64,000 bases of DNA from positions 32,842,501 to 32,906,500 of the forward strand of contig NC_080577.1 in the NCBI RefSeq assembly GCF_029962835.1, written 5' to 3'. The notes below the pieces were generated by a model, which worked only from the letters and a program-made list of their open reading frames with translations, made no database searches and had not been told where the DNA came from. This DNA is from Magnolia sinica. Its lineage: Eukaryota > Streptophyta > Magnoliopsida > Magnoliales > Magnoliaceae. Shown here piece by piece: positions 21,397 through 44,557 of this stretch (its first letter is position 1; each line of letters begins with the position of its first letter). The translations under genes and the position numbers were made by a program.

Positions 21397-21539
21397 CTAC
21401 TGAAAGTCGGGCTTTTCTGGGTAGGTGCAGCCGGACCTTTGGATGATCACATTGGCTGCATAACATCCAGCTTTTACACATTCCTCTATGGGCTTCTCTT
21501 GCACCAGCTGTGACAAAAATCCACCAACAAAAGCATCCC
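21397..21539 (-). CDS. ADK: ADK exon 13 (last)
   Basis: Follows the acceptor TTTTTGTAG. Completes the split Gly, then reads [12 protein letters not shown] and ends [12 protein letters not shown] with TAG at 21397-21399. It carries the catalytic Asp of the GAGD motif. It is separated from exon 12 by about 9.7 kb. Confidence 0.93.

Positions 21540-44557: not shown

Follow-up and report, generated by a model that had tools for sequence, protein, structure and literature searches.

A 23-kb adenosine kinase gene of Magnolia sinica with retrotransposons in introns 1 and 12, and its shorter paralogue

Introduction

The adenosine kinase (ADK) genes of maize and moss offer a comparison for the plant gene described here: 13 exons are present in all three maize genes and in all but one of the three moss genes, the exception having 11 (PMC12369479). 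Since the count recurs in maize and moss, 13 exons can be taken as a normal layout of a plant ADK gene. According to the same source, PDB entries 8rpa, 8rf7 and 9fw6 correspond to ZmADK3, ZmADK2 and PpADK1, respectively. Long genes and long introns are reported to be prevalent in Chloranthus and magnoliids, the mean intron being about 2.87 kb in Magnoliaceae (PMC8626473), and transposons in introns bring many genes to a length of more than 20 kb, among them 876 of 2,184 Chloranthus spicatus orthologs (PMC8626473) and 8,187 genes in C. sessilifolius (PMC8626421). Outside plants, the human ADK gene spans 546 kb (PMC3118340).

We analyzed a stretch of 64,000 nucleotides of the Magnolia sinica genome (the window; C5:32842501-32906500), which carries an ADK gene named ADK-A here. 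ADK-A resembles maize ADK2 and ADK3 in its 13 exons, in a gapless protein alignment with 86.4% identity and in the catalytic aspartate of the GAGD motif; the likeness in gene layout to maize and moss refers to exon number. As in the Chloranthales and magnoliid genes (PMC8626473, PMC8626421), transposons in the introns bring it to over 20 kb, but the larger of its elements is a LINE and not an LTR element, and its mean intron of 1.84 kb is shorter than the Magnoliaceae mean of about 2.87 kb (PMC8626473). With mammalian ADK it shares a small CDS in a very long gene, the mammalian gene being far longer and having 11 exons (PMC3118340). Surprise, as conveyed by a sequence-only reading of the window, finds no support: the 12 intron positions recur in a second copy in the same genome, ADK-B, 13 exons are normal for plant ADK, and long genes with transposon-filled introns are widespread among Chloranthales and magnoliids (PMC8626473, PMC8626421). 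As a finding, ADK-A, with introns made long by transposable elements, is real, and ordinary for its plant family.

Methods

The exons of ADK-A were located by reading the minus strand, guided by the plant ADK protein sequence, and were then joined by script. Those of ADK-B were sought using the exon lengths of ADK-A. Searches of the plant's own genome covered 1,838,573,281 bp in 127 contigs, the published assembly having 130 scaffolds and 1,839,595,854 bp (PMC10999834). The ligand-contact positions of ZmADK3 (12) and ZmADK2 (5) were taken from PMC12369479. Neutral decay of the coding frame was simulated in 5,000 runs by substitutions alone, at 0.095 per lineage since the insertion of the Ty3/gypsy element.

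Results and Discussion

Gene Model and Protein

The 13 exons of ADK-A (Table 1) occupy 44557..21397 on the minus strand, and all 13 join in phase into a CDS of 1,026 bp, giving 341 amino acids and a stop codon. All 12 introns have GT-AG borders. This agrees with the sequence-only reading, which had proposed a 341-residue frame and had placed the outer borders of the two longest introns at 44475, 35763, 31241 and 21539, all of them exact in the joined model. Its estimates were also close: the CDS, put at about 4%, makes up 4.4% of a locus of 23,161 bp, and introns 1 and 12, put at about 8.7 and 9.7 kb, measure 8,711 and 9,701 bp. Lengths of the remaining ten introns range from 79 to 2,138 bp, and the mean intron is 1,845 bp in ADK-A vs 663 bp in ADK-B. 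The only match of the protein in a tblastn search of the 64-kb window was the gene itself.

Table 1. Features of the ADK-A locus (window positions) and location of the second copy.
Feature	Position	Strand	Remarks
TATA-like TATAAAT of ADK-A	starts 44669
Coding exon 1 (ATG)	44475..44557	-	donor GTAAAT
Coding exon 2	35710..35763	-
Coding exon 3	34841..34887	-
Coding exon 4	34692..34723	-
Coding exon 5	34491..34592	-
Coding exon 6	34303..34370	-
Coding exon 7	32088..32164	-
Coding exon 8	31898..31995	-
Coding exon 9	31743..31813	-
Coding exon 10	31590..31656	-
Coding exon 11	31381..31503	-
Coding exon 12	31241..31301	-	ends within Gly295 codon (GAGD)
Coding exon 13	21397..21539	-	catalytic Asp296 and stop
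AATAAA/ATTAAA-type signal of ADK-A	21171
Tandem duplication, ~465 bp	43207..44135	.	near 5' end of intron 1
Third LTR-like piece, more diverged	~42330..42840	+	intron 1; K2P 0.36-0.38 to the other two LTRs
Ty3/gypsy LTR retrotransposon, decayed	36128..42112	+ (antisense to ADK-A)	intron 1
LTRs of the Ty3/gypsy element	~36128-36666 and 41525-42112
LINE, decayed, with nested insertions	22249..30395	+ (antisense to ADK-A)	intron 12
hAT-like insertion within LINE	26085..27753	.	inverted ends; 7/8 flanking repeat TTGTTATC/TTCTTATC; class inferred
Second hAT-like insertion, nested in first	26500..27096	.	inverted ends; exact 8-bp repeat GTCCAAAC; class inferred
SINE-like repeat, intron 12	21707..21860	+	tRNA-like boxes judged by eye
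ADK-B, second full copy	C12:17656268-17665248 (locus L024)		8,981 bp

The protein matches the PfkB family (PF00294) at E 6e-75 over residues 25-335 of 341. With phmmer against PDB sequences, it aligns without gaps over residues 2-340 to both 8rpa (maize ADK3; E 1.9e-203) and 8rf7 (maize ADK2; E 2e-200), with 293 of 339 residues identical in each case, and the strength and length of the 8rpa match exclude a chance origin of the joined frame. Identity to the moss protein 9fw6 is 224/341. Ten of the 12 ligand positions of ZmADK3 are kept, including D19, R132, E225, N295, and D299. For A265 and R302, which make up the remainder, the maize chain itself has Q and V in the gapless alignment, as does ADK-A, which means that the numbering does not map there. 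The ligand positions of ZmADK2 are all kept (5/5). Judged by its sequence, ADK-A encodes a plant adenosine kinase of the PfkB family.

Intron 12 is in phase 1 and splits the codon of Gly295 in the GAGD motif (residues 293-296). The sequence-only reading had pointed to this position and argued that failure to splice across the LINE would remove the catalytic aspartate, and retention of the intron is indeed predicted to yield a stop after 302 residues with the loss of Asp296; retention of intron 1 would leave 28 residues. The fact that intron 12 of ADK-B lies at the same place and has no LINE shows that the position is neither a product of the LINE nor a peculiarity of ADK-A.

Searches for relatives of ADK gave one pattern match and no relatives in viral contigs, and eight pattern matches and no relatives in a collection of genome contigs, as expected for a plant gene. 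A scan of the upstream region for bacterial promoters and terminators found nothing, which is irrelevant for a gene from a plant.

The Ty3/gypsy Element and Other Repeats in Intron 1

The decayed element in intron 1 has the two LTRs, 5-bp target-site duplication, primer binding site and polypurine tract of a Ty3/gypsy retrotransposon. The duplication is TCTAT, at 36123-36127 and 42113-42117; the PBS-like TTGGTATCGG we take to be a primer site for plant initiator tRNA-Met, and a G-run lies ahead of the 3' LTR. The probability of sharing a fixed 5-mer by chance is about 0.002, rising to about 0.05 (5%) when 3 bases of freedom are allowed at each end, so that TCTAT alone is weak support for the element, which the LTR pair is not. 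When 12 ORF pieces were searched in Pfam, two had a credible match: RT_RNaseH_2 at 39512-39706 (E 7.1e-7; 29.7 bits, just under the cut-off of 29.8) and the integrase-type SH3_Tf2-1 at 41105-41287 (E 2.3e-10, above the cut-off). The other 10 had either no Pfam match or weak matches under the cut-offs to unrelated families; the RT and integrase-core pieces, which are without credible Pfam matches, were recognized by eye. The RNase H piece precedes the SH3_Tf2-1 piece, which puts the integrase downstream, as in Ty3/gypsy.

The element makes up 69% of intron 1, or 75% when the third LTR-like piece is included. Its two LTRs differ by a K2P distance of 0.19 over 503 sites, which would correspond to 7 million years at the faster of two substitution rates or to 63 million years at the slower one, and no absolute date is claimed. 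The slower rate was that of PMC8626473.

Within the tandem duplication at 43207..44135, the two units are 95.7% identical, and both align to one stretch that is single in ADK-B; the duplication is probably specific to ADK-A and young. The motif TTNGATYTG is reportedly linked to intron-mediated enhancement, being named to that effect in an abstract. Over its first 1,300 bp, intron 1 has 0 matches to this motif; GATCTG occurs there five times vs 0.49 expected, four of the five lying within the two tandem units. GATYTG is also raised in intron 12, with 14 occurrences vs 7.5 expected.

The LINE and Nested Insertions in Intron 12

The LINE is flanked by a 9-bp repeat, TCACAGCTT, at 22240-22248 and 30396-30404, the latter copy directly following its A-rich tail. 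TCACAGCTT has no other plus-strand occurrence in the window; stretches of the size searched here would share a 9-mer by chance with a probability of 11%. Eight pieces were searched in Pfam. DUF4283 (E 1.1e-6) and zf-RVT (E 2e-8), which go together in plant LINEs, were above the cut-offs and lie on the same strand, one towards each end of the element. RVT_1 (E 2.4e-4) and Exo_endo_phos (E 0.0037) were under their cut-offs, and four of the eight pieces had no Pfam match. A search of intron 12 for a long direct repeat of the LTR kind found none. With its nested insertions, the LINE unit accounts for 84% of the intron; these shares bear out the earlier description of introns 1 and 12 as mostly transposon. 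The SINE-like repeat is present in three copies in the window, the others being at 17033-17182 and 49586-49679.

The Paralogue ADK-B and the Order of Events

ADK-B yielded the full set of 13 exons in the right order; 12 have the expected AG and GT borders, and GC follows exon 2. The joined frame is open over 341 residues, 329 of which are identical to those of ADK-A. The two copies are thus alike in protein length and in the number and positions of their exons, and differ mainly in intron load and in promoter-proximal sequence: ADK-B is shorter, its intron 12 (1,230 bp) is without the LINE, and its intron 1 (2,964 bp) has only remnants of the gypsy element. Intron 2 of ADK-B is GC-AG (donor at L024 3869-3870), the corresponding donor of ADK-A being GT, and the 30 bases of ADK-A around the TATA-like box (44657-44686) are a gap with respect to the upstream region of ADK-B (L024 ~683-690).

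Collinearity between the copies, at 80-88% identity, covers introns 2-11 as well as portions of introns 1 and 12; for introns 2-11 the K2P distance is 0.124 over 3,554 sites. In the coding frame, NG86 gave dN 0.019, dS 0.107 and dN/dS 0.18, and YN00 gave dN 0.022, dS 0.072 and dN/dS 0.31. A whole-genome duplication was considered as the source of the pair and rejected, because these dS values are too low compared with the Magnolia sinica WGD peak at Ks ~0.75 (PMC10999834).

The gypsy remnants of ADK-B are collinear with ADK-A and include one LTR together with the insertion junction. When 466 common columns are compared, the junction-side LTR of ADK-A has a K2P distance of 0.102 to its ADK-B counterpart vs 0.181 to its partner LTR in ADK-A, and the distance to ADK-B was the smallest in 1000/1000 bootstraps. 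Since this LTR is closer to its counterpart than to its own partner and the junction is common to both copies, the alignments place the gypsy insertion before the ADK-A/ADK-B duplication. The case of the LINE differs: about 350 bp on one side of its site and about 100 bp on the other are also without counterpart in ADK-B, and when a clean empty site was sought by aligning the joined flanks with ADK-B intron 12, the alignment was broken beside the site. With flanks of this kind, insertion after the duplication and deletion from ADK-B are both compatible with the comparison.

Selection on the Coding Frame and Competing Explanations

Under simulated neutral decay since the gypsy insertion, the frame stayed free of stops in 5.3% of the runs and kept all 24 splice dinucleotides as well in 0.04%. 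At half the rate, i.e. with transposable elements changing twice as fast as coding DNA, these values were 22 and 2.3%, and at a quarter of the rate (four times as fast) they were 46 and 14%. Together with the low dN/dS, the simulations support the idea that the gene was kept working with the gypsy insertion in place; dN/dS averages both copies, and the constraint is not assignable to ADK-A alone.

In our opinion, ADK-A is very probably a functional nuclear ADK gene with the 13-exon layout, the introns 1 and 12 of which have grown by tolerated retrotransposons and are spliced normally. The sequence-only reading, that of an intact ADK gene owing its length to transposons in these two introns, is supported. 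Retrotransposons landed in both introns and would have been tolerated, the Ty3/gypsy element entering intron 1 ahead of the gene duplication; ADK-A retained this element, ADK-B was reduced to remnants of it, presumably by deletions, and the LINE is carried by the ADK-A copy only. The pre-mRNA would be expected to splice normally over both long introns and to yield a 341-residue adenosine (and cytokinin-riboside) kinase. It might be argued instead that ADK-A was recently silenced, its long introns impairing splicing while ADK-B does the work, and that its frame has so far escaped decay. Two introns near 9 kb and a second intact copy, which could make such a loss tolerable, fit this possibility, but the gypsy element was already in intron 1 when the gene duplicated, the frame and the splice sites are intact, dN/dS between the copies is 0.18-0.31, and long introns are normal in Magnoliaceae (PMC8626473); we therefore consider recent silencing quite improbable.

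It is even harder to believe that the 23-kb locus is an assembly artefact merging exons from different copies. The several ADK fragments present elsewhere in the genome could in principle provide such exons, but those of ADK-A follow one another in the right sequence on a single strand of a 115.7-Mb scaffold, the collinearity with ADK-B runs through introns 2-11 and into introns 1 and 12, and the gypsy element and the LINE each have matching flanking repeats. As regards what an intact ADK-A might do differently from ADK-B, its long introns might set a slower or tissue-specific output, labour being divided by intron length and not by protein, but this strikes us as improbable. Taken as a functional gene with tolerated insertions, ADK-A leaves the general view unchanged and gives a clear example of a known pattern in which the order of events can be read: a housekeeping gene took a gypsy insertion through a duplication with its coding frame kept, and its sister copy has only remnants. 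With long introns in one and short ones in the other, and nearly the same protein encoded by both, the two copies also provide a natural paired comparison.

ADK Fragments and Other Features

A 650-bp piece of ADK-A (window 31070-31726; exons 10-12 with their introns) occurs at two further loci with 95% identity, L025 7577-8237 (C4:32908077-32908737) and L027 5676-6324 (C7:14483176-14483824), so that the genome search places it in at least four places, ADK-A and ADK-B included. At both further loci, it lies inside one longer unit common to the two; in L025, it is followed first by a tandem array, with about 50 units of 21 bp, and next by a stretch derived from plastid ycf1 (Pfam Ycf1, E 1.8e-76). 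From its surroundings, the piece looks like an ADK fragment copied or captured along with plastid DNA. Other partial copies were found: exons 2-6 with introns, 93-97% identical to ADK-B (L026; C12:20405501-20415500); an ADK 3' end that includes exon 13, about 16 kb past ADK-B (L022; C12:17674001-17684000); a piece of exons 5-6 (L028; C18:37518501-37528500); and a stop-containing piece of exon 13 (L023; C5:26368501-26378500).

Downstream of ADK-A, the window carries a single-exon gene for a PPR protein at 8550-10121 (+), with 523 codons, an E motif and a PPR_2 match at E 1.5e-46. A dispersed repeat of about 105 nt is present at 15542-15646 of the window and at six other places, and six of these seven copies are 61-74% identical to the reference copy.
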